The notes: generated by a model from the letters alone, not told the origin. 64,000 bases of DNA from an uncultured Prochlorococcus sp. (GCA_902634515.1 CACPKH010000001.1:62001-126000), one strand, 5' to 3'. Numbered from the stretch's first letter, positions 17,642 to 54,855 are shown. Program-made: numbers and translations.

Positions 17642-18733
17642 ATGCTTAAAGCAGGAATTGTTGGGTTGCCAAATGTTGGAAAGTCAACTTTGTTTAATGC
17701 ACTTGTTGCCAATGCTCAGGCACAGGCTGCAAATTTCCCTTTTTGTACCATTGAACCAAATGTTGGTTCGGTTTCAGTCCCAGACGAGCGATTGCATTTA
17801 CTTGGGGATTTAAGCTCTAGTAAACAAATTATCCCAACAAGAATTGAATTTGTAGATATTGCTGGACTTGTAAAAGGAGCTAGTCAGGGAGAAGGCTTGG
17901 GGAATAAGTTCTTATCTAATATTCGAGAGGTTGATGCGATAGTTCATGTCGTTCGATGCTTTGATGATGAAAATGTTATTCATGTTTCAGGGAGCGTTGA
18001 TCCAATACGAGACATAGAAATAATTAACTTGGAACTCGGTTTAGCAGATCTTGCTCAAATCGAAAGGAGAAGAGATCGTTTGAAAAAACAGATTCGTACC
18101 AGCAAAGAAGCACAAGTTGAAGATCAGGTTTTAGAAAAAGTATTTCTTGCAATTGAAAATGGTCTGGGAGCGAGAACCCTTGAGATAAGTGAGGAAGAGA
18201 GAATACTTATAAAACCTTTGGGATTATTAACTTCCAAACCTATTATTTATGCAACTAATTTAAGTGAGTCAAATCTAGCGAAAGGAAACTCTTTCTCAGA
18301 AGATGTGAAAAACTGGTCTAAGAAAGAGAATGCAGAGAGTATACGGATATCAGCTCAAGTAGAGGCAGAATTGATTGATTTAGGGGAGAAAGAAAGAATG
18401 GATTATTTGTCAGATTTAGGAGTTGAAGGCGGAGGATTGCAAAGCCTTGTAAAAGCTTGCTATAAACTTTTGGGCTTACGCACTTATTTTACTACGGGTG
18501 AGAAAGAGAGCCGAGCTTGGACAATAAAATCAGGAATGAAAGCTCCTCAAGCTGCAGGTGTAATTCACACTGATTTTGAAAAAGGTTTTATTCGGGCCCA
18601 AACTATAGGCTATAGGAAATTACTAGAAGCTGGTTCAATTGGCGAAGCAAGAAGTAAAGGGTGGATAAGAAGTGAGGGCAAAGATTACCTTGTTGAAGAA
18701 GGAGACGTAATGGAATTCTTATTTAATGTCTAA
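17642..18733 (+). CDS. ychF: Ribosome-binding ATPase/GTPase YchF
   Basis: 363 residues. G1 is GLPNVGKSTLFNAL, G3 is DIAGLVKGASQGEGLGNKFL, and the family-altered G4 is ATNLSESN (not NKxD, consistent with ATP preference). A coiled-coil insertion lies near 130-170 and the TGS domain closes the protein. YchF binds 70S ribosomes. The last codons encode MEFLFNV and a stop, and this tail recurs three times downstream, see the repeats at 20403, 21304 and 23501. The final 26 bases plus about 22 bases beyond the stop behave like an attachment site. Confidence 0.97.
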   Translation: MLKAGIVGLPNVGKSTLFNALVANAQAQAANFPFCTIEPNVGSVSVPDERLHLLGDLSSSKQIIPTRIEFVDIAGLVKGASQGEGLGNKFLSNIREVDAIVHVVRCFDDENVIHVSGSVDPIRDIEIINLELGLADLAQIERRRDRLKKQIRTSKEAQVEDQVLEKVFLAIENGLGARTLEISEEERILIKPLGLLTSKPIIYATNLSESNLAKGNSFSEDVKNWSKKENAESIRISAQVEAELIDLGEKERMDYLSDLGVEGGGLQSLVKACYKLLGLRTYFTTGEKESRAWTIKSGMKAPQAAGVIHTDFEKGFIRAQTIGYRKLLEAGSIGEARSKGWIRSEGKDYLVEEGDVMEFLFNV

Positions 18734-18755
18734 GAAATTAGTCATAGCAAGACTT
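18708..18755 (+). repeat. Putative attachment core at the ychF 3' end
   Basis: 48 bases covering the last codons of ychF and the start of its 3' flank. It aligns without gaps to 21390-21437 with 8 differences by eye, and its first 27 bases match 23587-23613 with 3 differences. Within codons almost all changes are synonymous (Leu TTA/TTG, Asn AAT/AAC, Val GTC/GTA, stop TAA/TAG). That is the pattern expected when elements integrate into a gene's 3' end and restore it. Calling it an att core is inference. Confidence 0.6.
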
Positions 18756-18815
18756 TTTAGAGTTAGAGCCAGTGAAAATGCCAACCAATTCATGCCATGA
18801 AATCTTGATGATGAC

Positions 18816-19373
18816 ATGAAGTTCATATTTTTAAAAACAGTTTGCACCATTGGCGCATTTGCTCTCTGTGTTATCGCTTACAACAGCTTTAAGTCATCTA
18901 ATCGTTTAAGACTTGCTGAAGACCAAGATTTCCTCCTAATCAGAGTCAAGGAAGATCTTCTTAATTCATGTGATGACGTACAACCTTTTACTCGCATAAA
19001 TCAAGTAAGTTGTTATCGATCGTTAGTGAAGGATTTAGATGCGGAATTGGAAGTTATTTTGGATAATCAAAGGCTAGGTAATAGGCGTTATAAGGAAAAA
19101 TTATTAAGTAACAAACATTCCGTATACAATGTTGCAATTGATTCCAATACTTTAGAAGATTGGCAAAAAGTTAGAGAAAACATATGTTCGGCAACTAATT
19201 GGTCCTGGCGTGGTGCAAGAATTTTCGGACTCACAATGGCAGCTTGCGAAGTCAAATTAAACCGAATTCTGATTGAATATATGAAATATGAATGTATTGG
19301 TCAAACAGTTTGTATTGATAGGTATAAACGATATTTAAATCCAGCTGAAGCTGTCGATTTAAAGTATCCCTAA
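18816..19373 (+). CDS. Hypothetical membrane-anchored or exported Cys-containing protein
   Basis: 185 residues. An N-terminal hydrophobic segment (FIFLKTVCTIGAFALCVIAY) is a signal anchor or uncleaved signal. The rest is soluble, charged and contains several cysteines (NSCDDV, VSCYRS, NICSATN, AACEVK, YECIGQTVCID), so disulfides outside the cytoplasm are plausible. No family is recognised. It is the first gene after the ychF tail and may be cargo of the putative inserted segment. Confidence 0.7.
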   Translation: MKFIFLKTVCTIGAFALCVIAYNSFKSSNRLRLAEDQDFLLIRVKEDLLNSCDDVQPFTRINQVSCYRSLVKDLDAELEVILDNQRLGNRRYKEKLLSNKHSVYNVAIDSNTLEDWQKVRENICSATNWSWRGARIFGLTMAACEVKLNRILIEYMKYECIGQTVCIDRYKRYLNPAEAVDLKYP

Positions 19374-19623
19374 TAAAAAACTACTTGTCATATTGTATGC
19401 TCTTATCTTGTGACAGCAACTGCAATATTTCTTTAAGCAATATTTTAATCTTTAGAATAAAAACCGTTAGAATTTGTGTCTGAAAAATTTTTATTTTAGA
19501 AAATTTCTTAGTCTCATTTTTTAACTTTAATAAAGAGTCAGAAAGTTTTTAAAATAAGCAAACAGTTTAAATTATTGCTAACAAATCTCGTTGGTTGTAT
19601 TCTTGTAGAAAATAGACTTTGAA

Positions 19624-20289
19624 ATGATTAAGAAAATATTCTTTTTGTTGATGTTACTCCCACTTGCTTCTTGTGTTAGGCCAAAATTTAGTGCCTCTTT
19701 AATTAATAAAGAACCAAGTGAATTAAAAAGACTCCGTCAATTAGCTAGTTCTGATAAGTGCATGAATGACAATGGCTCATTTAATAAATGCCTTAAGAAT
19801 AATTCTATTCCTTCTTTAGATTGGGTGTTTATGGGCGAAGATAGGTTTTCGAGTAGTAACCCTTCTATTTATTATCATTATATAGCGAACCCAAGAAGAA
19901 TGCCTTTCTCAGATGTTGTTATATTTAATTATCTTGGGATTATTATTAATCAGGAATTTGATGATAATTACAAAATAATTTTACATCCACCAGGTTATAC
20001 GCATAAGTTTAATTGTGAGACTTTTGAATATAAAGTGAAAGAGTGGGATTTTTATAGCAATGAATTCACTCAAACATGGTCGAAAGGAGGGATGATTGAT
20101 TTAAAAACACCAAATTACAGAACATTTGAAAAATACAAATCTTCAAAGCATTTTTTAGGGTTTCCAAGATTTCCTAGTGACACACCTGAAGTAACAAAAA
20201 TGCTTAATGAATCAGAAGAAAAGAGCTATAGGCTAAAGATGCAAGGTGTCAAGAACTTTAATTACATTTGCAAAAAGCTTATCAAATAA
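19624..20289 (+). CDS. Hypothetical lipoprotein
   Basis: 221 residues beginning MIKKIFFLLMLLPLASC, a textbook lipobox (L-A-S-C, lipidated Cys at 17). The mature part is Asn-, Lys- and aromatic-rich with paired cysteines (KCMNDNGSFNKCLKNN; later FNCETF and YICKKL). No domain is recognised. About 250 bases upstream hold no gene. Like its neighbour at 18816, it lies between ychF and the first downstream copy of the ychF tail, with AT-rich codon use. Confidence 0.72.
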   Translation: MIKKIFFLLMLLPLASCVRPKFSASLINKEPSELKRLRQLASSDKCMNDNGSFNKCLKNNSIPSLDWVFMGEDRFSSSNPSIYYHYIANPRRMPFSDVVIFNYLGIIINQEFDDNYKIILHPPGYTHKFNCETFEYKVKEWDFYSNEFTQTWSKGGMIDLKTPNYRTFEKYKSSKHFLGFPRFPSDTPEVTKMLNESEEKSYRLKMQGVKNFNYICKKLIK

Positions 20290-20402
20290 GCTCTATAACT
20301 AAGAGGCCTCACACTTGTGAAAAGTGAAAGAGGAGAGTAAGGGCTTAAAGAAGACGCTATGCTCTTTTTTTACTTTTTAGTCTCAAATCATTCTCAAGCT
20401 AG

Positions 20403-20515
20403 GTCTAACTATAGAAAATCTAGTCTAACTTTTTTATGTTCTTGTCTAACCCTGTAAGACATGGTTAAACCCTTTGGTATCACTGATAGTGTAACGTTCT
20501 TGTTTAATGTATAGG
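20403..20515 (+). repeat. Repeat unit copy 1: phased GTCTAAC boxes plus degenerate ychF tail
   Basis: GTCTAAC occurs at 20403, 20423 and 20444, and a variant GTTAAAC at 20464, so the starts are spaced 20, 21 and 20 bases. The unit ends in TTCTTGTTTAATGTATAGG (20497-20515), which reads as codons for FLFNV-stop, the YchF C-terminus. The preceding codons are changed (SVT where ychF has VME). No plus-strand gene follows: the next genes are on the opposite strand from 20670. The rest of 20290-20669 shows no gene. Confidence 0.7.
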
Positions 20516-20669
20516 CAGATCCCTTCCTGTACAGTTCATTTGACTATCCTTTTATTATAATTATCCTCTTACAAATAGTCAGAAACTTGATCATATGAAA
20601 TACTTTTAGTTGATTAAAACGTCTTTTGAATGATTTTCGATGATTAATTGATTTATTTTTGACAGATTC

Positions 20670-20849
20670 CTAATCTTTTAGGTGCACAAAACTATTCCTG
20701 TTTAGACTCAGGAATATTATTATAAAAGAGAATCCTAGTAAAAATGCAGTAGTTAATATAAGGATGAATGCTATTAAGCTGTAGTCTGAATTGAAGAAAA
20801 TAGCCGATTCAGCCATTTGCTTTAAGTAAGAATCATTTAAATAAGACAT
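20670..20849 (-). CDS. Small single-helix membrane protein
   Basis: 59 codons from ATG 20849, or 48 from ATG 20816 (MAESAIFFNSDYSLIAF). One long hydrophobic segment (LIAFILILTTAFLLGFSFII) is followed by a short basic tail ending HLKD. It starts 6 bases after the stop of the small protein at 20856-21044, so the two are probably an operon. The longer start gives the tighter spacing. Function unknown; the shape resembles small photosystem subunits, but I find no specific match. Confidence 0.6.
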   Translation of the reverse strand: MSYLNDSYLKQMAESAIFFNSDYSLIAFILILTTAFLLGFSFIIIFLSLNRNSFVHLKD

Positions 20850-20855
20850 TAAACT

Positions 20856-21044
20856 TTAGTTGTCTCCATGAGTATGAGCAATGCCTAATTCATGCATACG
20901 TGCATGTTCATCAATACTATCTGTCAATCCTTTGGCGCCAGGACCAAATGAGTTGTACATTCCATATGCTACTGAACCAAATAAGAAAAATAAAATAATT
21001 CCTATCATTAGATAAGGTGTAGGGTGAAAGCTAGATGATTCCAA
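20856..21044 (-). CDS. Small membrane protein with PsbN-like tail
   Basis: 62 residues: one helix (YLMIGIILFFLFGSVAYGMY), then NSFGPGAKGLTDSIDEHARM and a His-rich end (HELGIAHTHGDN). The segment after the helix resembles PsbN, whose conserved tail is (Y/F)xAFGPPSKxLxDPFDEHED. Here PP is GA, and the protein continues about 15 residues further. PsbN is a thylakoid protein needed for photosystem II assembly and repair. I call this PsbN-like only; a true psbN is expected elsewhere. Confidence 0.65.
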   Translation of the reverse strand: MESSSFHPTPYLMIGIILFFLFGSVAYGMYNSFGPGAKGLTDSIDEHARMHELGIAHTHGDN

Positions 21045-21303
21045 GAGGTTAATAGATTAAGGTTTAATCATCATTAATCATTATTTGATATTCTTCAAAT
21101 AAATCTTTTACTTTTTTGGTGATCAATTTTCTCTTTAAAGATGTCAGTTTGTTCGTTCTAAATGTTTTAATTGATTCAAGCTAAGGTTTGTATTTTCCTG
21201 AGACTTACCCATTGATTAGTCACCTCTGCTATGACTAGTATTTCACAATCAGGAGACTGAGATAGCTTTTATAGCAGTCAGTCTCAAATGCTTCTCATAT
21301 CAT

Positions 21304-21437
21304 GTCTAACCATCGAGAATTTAGTCTAACTTTTTTCGTGTTTGGTCTAACCATCATTCAGGGGGTCAAACGCTAGTCATAGCCTGATATAATGGAGTTC
21401 TTGTTTAACGTCTAAGACAGTAGTCTTAGCAAGGCTT
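21304..21437 (+). repeat. Repeat unit copy 2: phased GTCTAAC boxes plus ychF tail
   Basis: GTCTAAC at 21304, 21324 and 21345 and GTCAAAC at 21365 give the same 20-21-20 spacing as copy 1. From 21381 the codons read AGC-CTG without meaning, then GAT ATA ATG GAG TTC TTG TTT AAC GTC TAA, encoding DIMEFLFNV-stop as in YchF (DVMEFLFNV). Similarity to the ychF 3' flank continues to 21437. A 7-bp inverted repeat (CTAAGAC 21412-21418, GTCTTAG 21423-21429) lies just after the tail. TATAAT at 21388-21393 also looks like a -10 box. The 21045-21546 interval holds no gene. Confidence 0.75.
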
Positions 21438-21546
21438 CTGACAGGTTAGGCTAACAAGTTATCTAACCCAACAAAGAAAATTAAAAATAAAATTTATTTA
21501 GACCAACTAAGTATATAATATGCTCTACAAAGATTAGAAAAACATT

Positions 21547-23118
21547 ATGCTTTATTTAAAAAAAATATTAAATACTTTTTTTTATACTTTAACTTTATTG
21601 TTGTTTAATTCAATTGCAATAGCTGAAAATCTATCAGAACCACAATCAGAAAAACAGCTTTTAGCGGATGCTATAAAGGTTTATTCTTCCTTATCAACTC
21701 AAGATGATATAAAAACAAGGATAAGAAAACAAGAAGTGGTTATAAAGAAAATTGATGAAATAGTTGATAATTTCTCGGGTACTGATGCTGGAATTGAAAT
21801 ACTTATATCTGGTGACTTTGGGAAATATAATATAAATGCTATAAGAAAGAAATATATGGATGAACTAATTGCTTATAATCTTAAAACTTGTAAATCTGAA
21901 CCAAGCTTTAATTGCTTGGGTTTTGTTTCATTAGATAATGGACTCAAGGGATGTGATATAAAAGATGACTTTTCGGGAATAATTACTGCTAGCAAAAATT
22001 TTAGAAATGCATATAGTATTTTCAGTACTCAGGGTGATGGACAGAAATATAAGGTAGGAATTCTATCTAGTTTTAAAAATTGTGCTGCAGGTCAAAGCGA
22101 TTTTAAAAAAGATTTTCTTCACAGGGGATTAATCAACATTCTTCTTGATTCTGGAGATGAAAACAAGGCTGTAGGAATAACTCAAAACATGAAAACACCA
22201 ATATTTAAACTTTTAGCAGCCGCTGATATTCGATCATATCAAGGTAAACTGGATTATAAAACTTTAAAGGTTTTATTTGAAAAAGCAGAGAATCTCTCTA
22301 ATAAAACAGATCAAAATAGTGCGATGTTTACACTAATAAATACTGCTTATAAAGAGAATCTTGATCCTTATTCTAAAGGAGCCAAAAAAGCTAAAATAGC
22401 TATTTCATTTCCCCCCACTTATTCTTACAATGAATCACCATGTGGTGAACAAGCTCAGGGTAAATATTTAAGTGAATTAGCAATGGATTTTCTCTTTCTA
22501 GACTCCCAAGTTGAACGAAGCCCATATCTCACAATTAATGCTAGAGAAAAAGCTAGTGAAATTATTGAACAGTGTTCAAATTATGCACTTCAGCCTATAA
22601 ATTATTTTCTGAAGACAGATCTAAAATCAGCCAAAGCAATTAGGGAATTTCAGTCTCAACTTGGAAATGGCCAAAAGATTAACACTGATTTCTTTGTTAA
22701 AAATATTCCTTTAGAAAGCCTAATAGGTTATGTAACTTCAATGGAAGAGGAGATAAATGAATCAACGATGCAACTAAAAGCAGCTGGAACTCTCTTAAAG
22801 GGTAAAGAGCTTGAGGAATACAAAAGAAGCATTAAGCTTCAGCCTATGCACCTTAGAAAATTTTATATAAAACAAATGAGAAGTTTATCAGGAACAACTC
22901 CTATTTATCCTTTTGAAGATGAGTATGGGAAATTCAACCTATATAAATTATATATTGATAATGGAGATGTATGCAGAGCCTCTGAGACTCTTTTCAAGGA
23001 TATTAGAGGTGGAGATTATGAAGAAGAATCAGTTACTTACTTTATTACAAGTCCGAACATTTTAGTTAATAAAAAGTACAACTGTGGTGATGGTGAATTA
23101 GATCTACTATTAAACTAA
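21547..23118 (+). CDS. Large hypothetical exported protein
   Basis: 523 residues with a cleavable signal peptide (FFYTLTLLLFNSIAIA, cleavage near residue 26). The mature protein is mostly helical, Lys/Ser/Asn-rich, with repeated short helices (for example LFEKAENLSNKTDQNSAMFT) that could form an alpha-solenoid, though no TPR consensus is clear. Conserved-looking Cys pairs occur (CKSEPSFNCLGF, SPCGEQAQ, VCRASETL). It starts 110 bases after repeat copy 2, whose TATAAT could serve as its promoter. Function unknown. Confidence 0.75.
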   Translation: MLYLKKILNTFFYTLTLLLFNSIAIAENLSEPQSEKQLLADAIKVYSSLSTQDDIKTRIRKQEVVIKKIDEIVDNFSGTDAGIEILISGDFGKYNINAIRKKYMDELIAYNLKTCKSEPSFNCLGFVSLDNGLKGCDIKDDFSGIITASKNFRNAYSIFSTQGDGQKYKVGILSSFKNCAAGQSDFKKDFLHRGLINILLDSGDENKAVGITQNMKTPIFKLLAAADIRSYQGKLDYKTLKVLFEKAENLSNKTDQNSAMFTLINTAYKENLDPYSKGAKKAKIAISFPPTYSYNESPCGEQAQGKYLSELAMDFLFLDSQVERSPYLTINAREKASEIIEQCSNYALQPINYFLKTDLKSAKAIREFQSQLGNGQKINTDFFVKNIPLESLIGYVTSMEEEINESTMQLKAAGTLLKGKELEEYKRSIKLQPMHLRKFYIKQMRSLSGTTPIYPFEDEYGKFNLYKLYIDNGDVCRASETLFKDIRGGDYEEESVTYFITSPNILVNKKYNCGDGELDLLLN

Positions 23119-23253
23119 GTAAAATTAATAGTAGTAGCAATATTTATTAAAATTAAACCAGATTTCTTATGTTCTATCTATAAATTATTAAATCAAATAA
23201 ATTTCCTGATTTTTATGTAAATTCTATCCATCTCCCTCCATCTGATTCATTAA

Positions 23254-23526
23254 GTTTCTGCATCACCTAAACCAGCCAAGGTAAAGGCTTATCTGCAAGC
23301 GCAGCAATCAGGGGAAGTAATAGGCGTTTCCTATCTCAATTATCGAGCATTAACTCAATTCAAAGAGAAATTCAGAAGAATGCATTGTTCTCAGATTAAG
23401 ACTAGATCATTTAAAAATGTTTTGACTATATCTACGTTTTCAGGGCTAGGTTTCCGAGAACGTTTGCATCCCAACCTGTCTTGCCTCCGTCTTAAACCTT
23501 GTCTAACCAAGCAAAATCTAGTCTAA
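23254..23526 (+). pseudogene. Possible gene remnant without a start codon
   Basis: 90 codons are open between a TAA ending at 23253 and a TAA at 23524, but no good start exists; the first ATG is at 23390. The first half reads like real protein (KPAKVKAYLQAQQSGEV, then SYLNYRALTQFKEKFRRM) and is richer in G and C than its surroundings. The second half runs into repeat copy 3. I do not recognise the parent gene. It may be a decayed piece of an inserted element. Confidence 0.3.
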
Positions 23527-23613
23527 CTATTTTCGTGTTTGGTCTAACCATCATTTAGAGGGTAAAACGCCAGTCATAGCCTGATATAATGGAATTCTTG
23601 TTTAATGTATAGG
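23501..23613 (+). repeat. Repeat unit copy 3: phased GTCTAAC boxes plus ychF tail
   Basis: GTCTAAC at 23501, 23521 and 23542, then GTAAAAC at 23562, with spacing 20-21-20 again. The unit ends with GAT ATA ATG GAA TTC TTG TTT AAT GTA TAG, encoding DIMEFLFNV-stop. From the second box on, copies 2 and 3 are close to 90 percent identical by eye. TATAAT lies at 23585-23590, 16 bases after the fourth box. A small gene starts at 23691. Apart from the remnant at 23254, the 23119-23690 interval holds no gene. Confidence 0.75.
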
Positions 23614-23690: not shown

Positions 23691-23864
23691 ATGAAATTTG
23701 CACTTGCTAGACATGATGGAGAGGAAGATGAGATCACTTCTCAAAGTTTTGATCAATACGATGATGCTTATGAGTTGCTTGAGCAAATAGTAGGAGATCT
23801 TTGCTGCTCCGATGCTGATTACGATGACCATCCTTATTATGAAATCATTGAAGTCAAGAATTGA
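23691..23864 (+). CDS. Small acidic hypothetical protein
   Basis: 57 residues, strongly acidic, beginning MKFALARHDGEEDEITSQSF. It has LLEQIVGDLCCSDADYDDHP in the middle and EIIEVKN at the end. No membrane segment and no recognised domain; the two adjacent Cys are notable. It follows repeat copy 3 by 77 bases and could be transcribed from its TATAAT. Confidence 0.65.
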   Translation: MKFALARHDGEEDEITSQSFDQYDDAYELLEQIVGDLCCSDADYDDHPYYEIIEVKN

Positions 23865-24287: not shown

Positions 24288-24989
24288 TTAGCTGATCTTA
24301 TTTAGATCCTGTTCAATTTCAAATGGCTCAGTAATAATTTCAAGAGGACTAGGTTTATTATCTGAAGTAGAGGAGGGGTCTTCCATTAGTACGTCTATTT
24401 CTGAATCAGCTAACTCTTGTTCAATTTCAAATGGCTCAGTAATAATTTCAAGAGGACTAGGTTTATTATCTGAAGTAGAGGAGGGGTCTTCCATTAGTAC
24501 GTCTATTTCTGAATCAGCTAACTCTTGTTCAATTTCAAATGGCTCAGTAATAATTTCAAGAGGAGTAGGTTGATTATCTGAAGTATAGGAGGAGTCTTCC
24601 ATTAGTACGTCTATTTCTGAATCAGCTAACTCTTGTTCAATTTCAAATGGCTCAGTAATAATTTCAAGAGGATTCGTTGCATTCTCATTTCTTAAAAGAG
24701 GTTCTTTTAGTCCGACCTTTTGATTTTCTTCAATAACTAATTCTTCTTCATTATTTACATCCAAATAAATGTCTGCATTTTTATCTTCTATTAGTATTTT
24801 TGTCAGGTCTATTACATCAATAGTTAAGGACTTTTGACTTTGATAAATATCTTTTACTACCTTGATAATCTCACTGGATTTTGAACGCTGAGAAACAAGT
24901 GTATAGCTGGCCCATACAGCATATAAAATTGAAATTAGAACCAGAGAAATAATGACATAGTATGTTGCTTTAAAGAATTTATCAACCAT
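24288..24989 (-). CDS. Membrane-anchored acidic protein with tandem 36-residue repeats
   Basis: 233 residues. One N-terminal helix (TYYVIISLVLISILYAVWAS) anchors it. After an acidic linker come 3.5 tandem repeats of a 36-residue unit whose core is LEIITEPFEIEQELADSEID followed by VLMEDPSSTSDNKPSP. The repeat part is very acidic and probably extended. The last unit is truncated (EQDLNKIS). Two units are identical at the DNA level, so the length may vary between strains. Function unknown; a surface or tethering role is only a guess. Confidence 0.7.
   Translation of the reverse strand: MVDKFFKATYYVIISLVLISILYAVWASYTLVSQRSKSSEIIKVVKDIYQSQKSLTIDVIDLTKILIEDKNADIYLDVNNEEELVIEENQKVGLKEPLLRNENATNPLEIITEPFEIEQELADSEIDVLMEDSSYTSDNQPTPLEIITEPFEIEQELADSEIDVLMEDPSSTSDNKPSPLEIITEPFEIEQELADSEIDVLMEDPSSTSDNKPSPLEIITEPFEIEQDLNKIS
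24311..24675 (-). repeat. Tandem 108-bp repeats inside a coding sequence
   Basis: Units begin at 24311, 24419, 24527 and 24635 (plus-strand coordinates), exactly 108 bases apart. The first two are identical over all 108 bases by eye, the third differs at four positions and the fourth is a partial unit. 108 is a multiple of three, so unit gain or loss keeps the frame. The perfect identity points to a recent slippage or unequal recombination event. Confidence 0.95.
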
Positions 24990-54774: not shown

Positions 54775-54855
54775 AAACGTTCACCTTCTATTTGCGAAGG
54801 CGCAGTACGACTTAAGCCAGGGAACGGGGACTTGAGTTTACTCTGGAGGACTTAA
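54775..54855 (+). promoter_or_regulatory. Probable glutamine-II riboswitch (downstream-peptide RNA motif)
   Basis: Nested pairing is visible: CGTTC (54778-54782) with GAACG (54822-54826), and CCTTC (54784-54788) with GAAGG (54796-54800), followed by CGCAGTACGAC. The order, spacing and location just before a short reading frame fit the downstream-peptide / glutamine-II class known from marine picocyanobacteria. ACTTAAG (54810-54816) can also pair with CTTGAGT (54831-54837), and CCAG (54817-54820) with CTGG (54843-54846), which touches the GGAGG ribosome site at 54845-54849. Translational control by glutamine is the expected mode. Confidence 0.72.

Follow-up and report, generated by a model that had tools for sequence, protein, structure and literature searches.

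We propose that the GTCTAAC heptamers repeated behind the GTPase gene ychF in a 64,000-nucleotide stretch of DNA from an uncultured Prochlorococcus sp. (GCA_902634515.1 CACPKH010000001.1:62001-126000; the whole stretch is referred to below as the window) are arm-type sites of a tyrosine site-specific recombinase, which would make up the right-end (P) arm of integrative cassettes added at the 3' end of that gene. We put the probability of this reading at about 0.83. All the evidence is computational, and statements about function are deduced from sequence. Prochlorococcus is the most abundant photosynthetic cell of the ocean. The window comes from a draft assembly whose 41 contigs total 1.19 Mb and whose completeness is estimated at 66%. 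The GC content of the window (about 35%), its Glutamine-II riboswitch and the presence of named Prochlorococcus single-cell genomes among the relatives that share the box pattern mark it as Prochlorococcus.

The initial annotation had described three GTCTAAC boxes and a variant fourth, with starts spaced by 20, 21 and 20 bp, in each of three copies, and this arrangement was found in all three. With as many as 3 mismatches tolerated, the pattern of three boxes occurs three times in the window and in none of 100 shuffles, and a search for spaced GTCTAAC across the whole 1.19 Mb assembly, as the annotation had advised, returned just the three window sets. Each set stands 40 bp ahead of a duplicate of the final ~25 bp of ychF (a "tail"), while no TCTAAC occurs within 130 bp upstream of the real ychF tail of the window. 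The elements of the array are as follows.

17642..18733, plus strand: ychF open reading frame encoding a 363 aa GTPase, whose 3' end is the chromosomal target
18710..18733, plus strand: ychF tail ATGGAATTCTTATTTAATGTCTAA, left attachment core, attL-like
18734..20490, plus strand: cassette A, boundaries set from the tails
18740..18768, plus strand: left-end arm of cassette A, P'-like, with AGTCATAGCAAG and an inverted box GTTAGAG
18816-19373 and 19624-20289: open reading frames of cassette A, the second with a lipoprotein-like start, of no clear family
20403..20409, plus strand: box 1 of set 1, GTCTAAC
20423..20429, plus strand: box 2 of set 1, GTCTAAC
20444..20450, plus strand: box 3 of set 1 (core-proximal), GTCTAAC
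20464..20470, plus strand: fourth box of set 1, weak, GTTAAAC, without conservation in other clades
20491..20515, plus strand: tail copy 1, second core, GTAACGTTCTTGTTTAATGTATAGG; identity to genome G078 begins at TTCTTG
20516..21391, plus strand: cassette B, in large part shared with a G078 cassette
20670-20849, minus strand: cassette B gene for a 59 aa protein
20856-21044, minus strand: cassette B gene for a 62 aa PsbN-like protein (PF02468, E 9e-6)
21304..21371, plus strand: box set 2, GTCTAAC at 21304, 21324 and 21345, GTCAAAC at 21365
21392..21415, plus strand: tail copy 2, third core, encoding MEFLFNV and a stop
21416..23588, plus strand: cassette C, boundaries as listed
21422..21467, plus strand: left-end arm of cassette C, with AGTCTTAGCAAGG, GTTAGG (21445) and TCTAAC (21462)
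21547-23118: cassette C gene for a 523 aa secreted-looking protein of no family
23501..23568, plus strand: box set 3, GTCTAAC at 23501, 23521 and 23542, GTAAAAC at 23562
23589..23612, plus strand: tail copy 3, right-most core, attR-like
about 23691-23864, plus strand: flanking 57 aa gene after tail copy 3

The distance between box and tail is conserved across genera, which favours the suggestion of the initial annotation that the boxes are arm-type recombinase sites beside an att-like core. A box followed after 39-42 bp by a tail was found in 20 of 400 family genomes from 5 genera, with 0 control matches, and one further site with one mismatch was found in a sixth genus (g39); these counts rest on the genus labels of the genome search. 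The annotation held that its claim would fall if boxes were absent wherever the ychF tail is duplicated, and they are present at most such tails: when every extra ychF tail with up to 3 mismatches was taken, with or without boxes (n=47), a TCTAAC ending 38-42 bp upstream was found at 39 of them, as compared with 1.3% of random positions in the same arrays. Box ends cluster 40, 51, 61, 71 and 81 bp ahead of these 47 tails, and neighbouring boxes are nearly always 10-11 or 19-21 bp apart. The real ychF tails have no TCTAAC within 130 bp upstream (0/17), and 147 kb of chromosome upstream of ychF contain a single TCTAAC pair within 60 bp. On the other (P') side of the displaced tails TCTAAC occurs within 120 bp in 25 of the 47 cases (control 4.6%), in the window after tail copy 2 only; the left-arm motif of cassette A recurs behind other tails. 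The proximal box is invariant in 31 aligned sites, but these were picked for having it, and the 47-tail count is the fair figure. Chance repetition was considered and rejected on the strength of the shuffles and the unbiased tail count.

The description of the boxes needs two refinements. The expectation that the spacing would hold in homologous copies was borne out as far as the helical register is concerned, but the full 20/21/20 pattern is restricted to clades g1, g4, g11 and g39; other clades have spacings of 10+21, 21 or 11+8+11, mostly steps of one or two turns. The fourth box, present in all three window copies, lacks conservation beyond the nearer relatives of the window; its position reads GTAATCA in other clades. 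Tandem GTCTAAC repeats every ~20-22 bp were also seen in Bacillaceae, Methylococcaceae-type and other genomes (loci L012, L019, L020, L016, L022, L023, L025 and L026); with no ychF tail visible after the boxes, they were set aside.

Comparison of genomes indicates that the DNA between tails is mobile. In relatives, box-then-tail units occur behind ychF singly or in tandem, up to about nine, and in pairwise comparisons the identity between genomes switches sharply within the tails. Cassette B and its G078 counterpart are 98.9% identical over ~690 bp starting from TTCTTGTTTAATGTATAGG, including 100% identity of the PsbN-like protein, as against 70-72% for the nearby chromosome; the right end of the cassette, boxes included, is less similar (84%). 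Genome G205 has a three-gene cassette directly after ychF, while in G247 the same cassette (98.3%) lies one place further, an extra cassette being inserted exactly between it and ychF. Further switches of identity were found in the pairs G145/G056, G086/G172 and G016/G066, and the presence or absence of a cassette at a fixed locus distinguishes G205 from G247 and G056 from G145. Cargo varies by cassette and may lie on either strand. Since identity switches inside the tails, the tails would serve as cores for attachment, and mobile cassettes in tandem would make up the DNA that separates them; at the level of sequence we regard the array, the position of boundaries inside tails, the transfer of cassettes and the box geometry as established. 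Orthologs of ychF, found by tblastn with ychF as the query, are 73-83% identical in 13 related loci. The region of cassette B also gives a weak DNA match (122 bp at 72%) to the uncultured marine virus record MH319741. Among viral contigs no match was obtained for the exact box, box-plus-tail or tail patterns, nor in a search with an integrase alignment, and no integrase relative was found among phage records.

A second array family was encountered in the complete genome G052 with a model of the ychF sites. Its core, AATTAACTACTGGCTAATGAA, matches an EVE-domain gene at its 5' end, where ...NYWLMKSEP is encoded (the EVE assignment was made by eye). With a mixed model, EVE-type arrays were found in nearly all low-light genomes tested and were not found in three larger-genome relatives (G004, G005 and G034, Synechococcus in look). 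Large arrays of this type are those of L098/L109 (G052 1662755-1684893) and L111-L123. An 8-mer direct repeat (7-8 of 8 positions matching) stands at the same distance from the core in 35 of 56 core copies (control 2.6%), nearly always with 11 bp spacing, and the repeated word differs by cassette: ATTCCAAC, TCCACACA, ATTCACAC, ATTCAAAC, CATTCACG, ACTCTAAC or ATTCTAAC. The geometry in the EVE array is fixed and the box sequence is variable. PRE1 short repeats reportedly occur in multiple copies in Prochlorococcus islands (Coleman et al., 2006) and could be the EVE-type cores. One EVE-array cassette of G052 holds what looks, by eye, like a Pcb/CP43-like antenna gene.

The EVE arrays include some autonomous elements, in which a gene for an integrase of 500-530 aa begins 97-167 bp after the left core, with the box pair situated between core and gene, and its product matches PF00589 and PHROG integrases. 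Related integrases adjoin rpsD and an iscA/erpA-like gene at their 3' ends (gene names assigned by eye) and also occupy a third target (L125:4399-5940, L157:5308-6897 and L124:2520-4073, each with short repeats nearby). The G172 element has ACTCTAAC pairs at both ends and the element at the iscA/erpA site of G214 a TTCTAAC pair, both close to the box type of the ychF arrays. Integrases associated with boxes ATCCACAC (G078, G065, G218, G183) and ATTCCAAC (G016, G031) are 95-99% identical in their C-terminal parts, whereas residues 1-85 are only 44-46% identical when the boxes differ and 91-99% identical within a box type. The box and the N-terminus of the integrase are thus seen, in the aligned sequences, to co-vary in this sister array. 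Because nearly identical catalytic halves are joined to different N-termini where the boxes differ, the N-terminus probably reads the boxes; for such a role, this domain swap in nature provides the strongest evidence.

The ychF arrays could then be explained as follows. The core of a cassette would duplicate the final ~25 bp of ychF, and a cassette circle would have the order P arm - core - P' arm. On integrating into the ychF tail, the circle would restore the ychF C-terminus (MEFLFNV stop) and leave the P' arm just behind ychF, with the boxes and the displaced tail at the far end. As the displaced tail would still be usable as a core, further cassettes could stack into a tandem array, of which the window would contain three. 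Boxes at one- or two-turn steps would place several integrase N-terminal domains on one face of the DNA. The sampled ychF cassettes carry no integrase, so one would have to act in trans; by analogy, the family of 500-530 aa found in the autonomous EVE-array elements and at the rpsD and iscA/erpA-like sites is the foremost candidate type. In this scheme, binding of an integrase to GTCTAAC, its action in trans and the strand exchange are the steps that we infer.

Several observations weigh against an assignment of the boxes to such an integrase. The proximal box is absent from 8 of the 47 extra tails. The ychF arrays examined contain no integrase of any kind, and no integrase related to the family adjoins ychF in 77 genomes, adjacency having been checked for the fetched loci only; the idea of a resident integrase inside ychF arrays was consequently dropped. 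The complete ychF-array genomes G109, G145 and G052 lack the 500-530 aa family, so the link to GTCTAAC is drawn by analogy, from the EVE array and the TCTAAC-type boxes in G172 and G214. The N-terminal domain of the integrases has no match among the arm-binding domains of Pfam or PDB, and the EVE-type proteins read TGMSPEE where the usual TGxR motif with the catalytic arginine stands, so their activity is not assured. Serine resolvases, considered as another possibility, were found neither in the assembly of the window nor inside arrays. Either the enzyme visits in trans, or the arrays outlive their enzyme, or a core enzyme acts on them.

Among the other explanations, the one that survives best, though we consider it improbable, is that the boxes bind a ribbon-helix-helix protein of ~185 aa, an excision factor or silencer, and that the integrase binds the core only. 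Proteins of this class bind short tandem repeats. This one, with a ParD/HicB-like N-terminus, has its gene at or close to arrays of the ychF and EVE types (L043:10298-10846, L113:16-564, L109:19402-19950 and L067:16467-17033); of 19 complete genomes, 12 have a single close ortholog, which lies in an array or no further than roughly 40 kb from one wherever arrays were mapped, and the array-less G094, G034 and G009 have none. The close ortholog is, however, also absent from the array-rich G003 and from the ychF-array genome G056, and the explanation does not account for boxes that flank the integrase gene itself and change with the integrase N-terminus among elements of one core. The protein could still serve as an accessory factor.

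Slightly less probable again is that the enzyme is the universal tyrosine recombinase of ~390 aa encoded beside a ferrochelatase-like gene (L075:8133-9305, with syntenic loci L076, L077, L079 and L080), the boxes being its accessory sites. Its catalytic motifs look intact by eye, and it is the sole tyrosine recombinase of array carriers such as G109 and G145, being the only PF00589 match (E<=10) in these two and in the ychF-array carrier G184. Yet it is a core gene, found also in G017, which has no array; there are no TCTAAC pairs near it, and no co-variation of the kind seen for the EVE-type integrases speaks for it.

The remaining alternatives are very unlikely. The initial annotation had offered activator sites as a second option, with the fourth box in the -35 position of a promoter, and in copies 2 and 3 a TATAAT indeed lies 16 bp beyond the end of this box; but TATAAT accompanies just 3 of the 47 copies, the next gene is on the plus strand in 26 and on the minus strand in 20, and the fourth box lacks conservation. 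A spread of the units by segmental duplication or by homologous recombination between the short tail repeats, with boxes as passengers, would agree with repeated tails and differing cassette contents, but is hardly compatible with joints that share only ~25 bp between unrelated contents, with the absence of boxes from real ychF, with box geometry conserved where the flanking sequence is not, or with the same geometry at the EVE gene around a different core.

The arm-site reading thus draws on the conserved box-to-core distance, the box-free real ychF tails, the boundaries within tails and the box-specific N-termini of related integrases. Two other features of the window lie apart from the array: three tandem 108-nt repeats (93-98% identical, 24307-24686) inside a minus-strand open reading frame of 233 aa (24288-24989), and a Glutamine-II riboswitch on the plus strand at 54775-54836 (RF01704, 70 bits).

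Compared with known systems, the ychF sites resemble lambda-type attachment sites in having a core identical to the target, a restored end of the target gene and, next to the core, arm sites that are direct repeats in helical register and are absent from the chromosomal target: a ychF tail was found at each junction, and the arm sites lie on the element side only (39/47 vs 0/17). They differ in that the ychF cassettes are non-autonomous and tandem, the target is a protein gene, the ychF integrase was not found, and the box sequence varies by element at constant geometry. Like integrons, the arrays consist of tandem small cassettes that seemingly moved singly by a recombinase in trans; unlike them, they use a gene-tail core with arm boxes, and the head of the array is ychF, with no IntI-type integrase there or elsewhere in the array. 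Additive flexible genomic islands have a fixed target to which cassettes are added serially, with target-end repeats between them (PMC4119200), and an additive island with recurring tRNA-Lys tail repeats has been described (PMC10872708). The fixed locus, the serial cassettes, the target-end repeats and the presence or absence of cassettes between strains are shared with our arrays, whereas the target (ychF or the 5' end of the EVE gene instead of a tRNA), the helically phased arm boxes at cassette ends and the box types tied to integrase N-termini are not. Tycheposons, as described at second hand in PMC10872708, are Prochlorococcus cargo elements that use 7 tRNA genes and carry a tyrosine recombinase. 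Cargo elements with tyrosine recombinases in Prochlorococcus are common to both, and the ychF, EVE and rpsD targets and the lack of a recombinase in most elements set ours apart; the ychF arrays have ychF and no tRNA as the target and contain no tyrosine recombinase. A tRNA scan of the window and of EVE-array loci came back empty. Integrases acting at the 5' end of dusA provide a parallel to the EVE 5' end, since in both a conserved protein-coding gene receives the element at one end, though at a different target and with no multi-cassette arrays in the abstract of that study (PMC4482086). Our literature search found no paper on ychF as a Prochlorococcus integration site. Overall, the system works like lambda-type attachment sites laid out as an additive island, with an integron-like build-up of integrase-less cassettes.

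We would give even odds to a broader proposal, namely that low-light Prochlorococcus maintain an integron-like economy of lambda-type parts, in which integrase-less cassettes collect in arrays at the fixed ends of certain protein genes (ychF and EVE, probably among others), and helically phased box pairs are the code for which integrase N-terminus moves which cassette at a shared core. The arrays offer a natural experiment in arm-site recognition, with one catalytic half, different N-termini and different boxes, and, since boxes and tails mark the boundaries to the base, an automated cassette inventory of hundreds of genomes becomes feasible. Genomic islands drive the ecological diversity of Prochlorococcus, and the entry of genes outside tRNA genes is poorly understood; the cassette economy, if true, would be behind a large part of the turnover of genes there.

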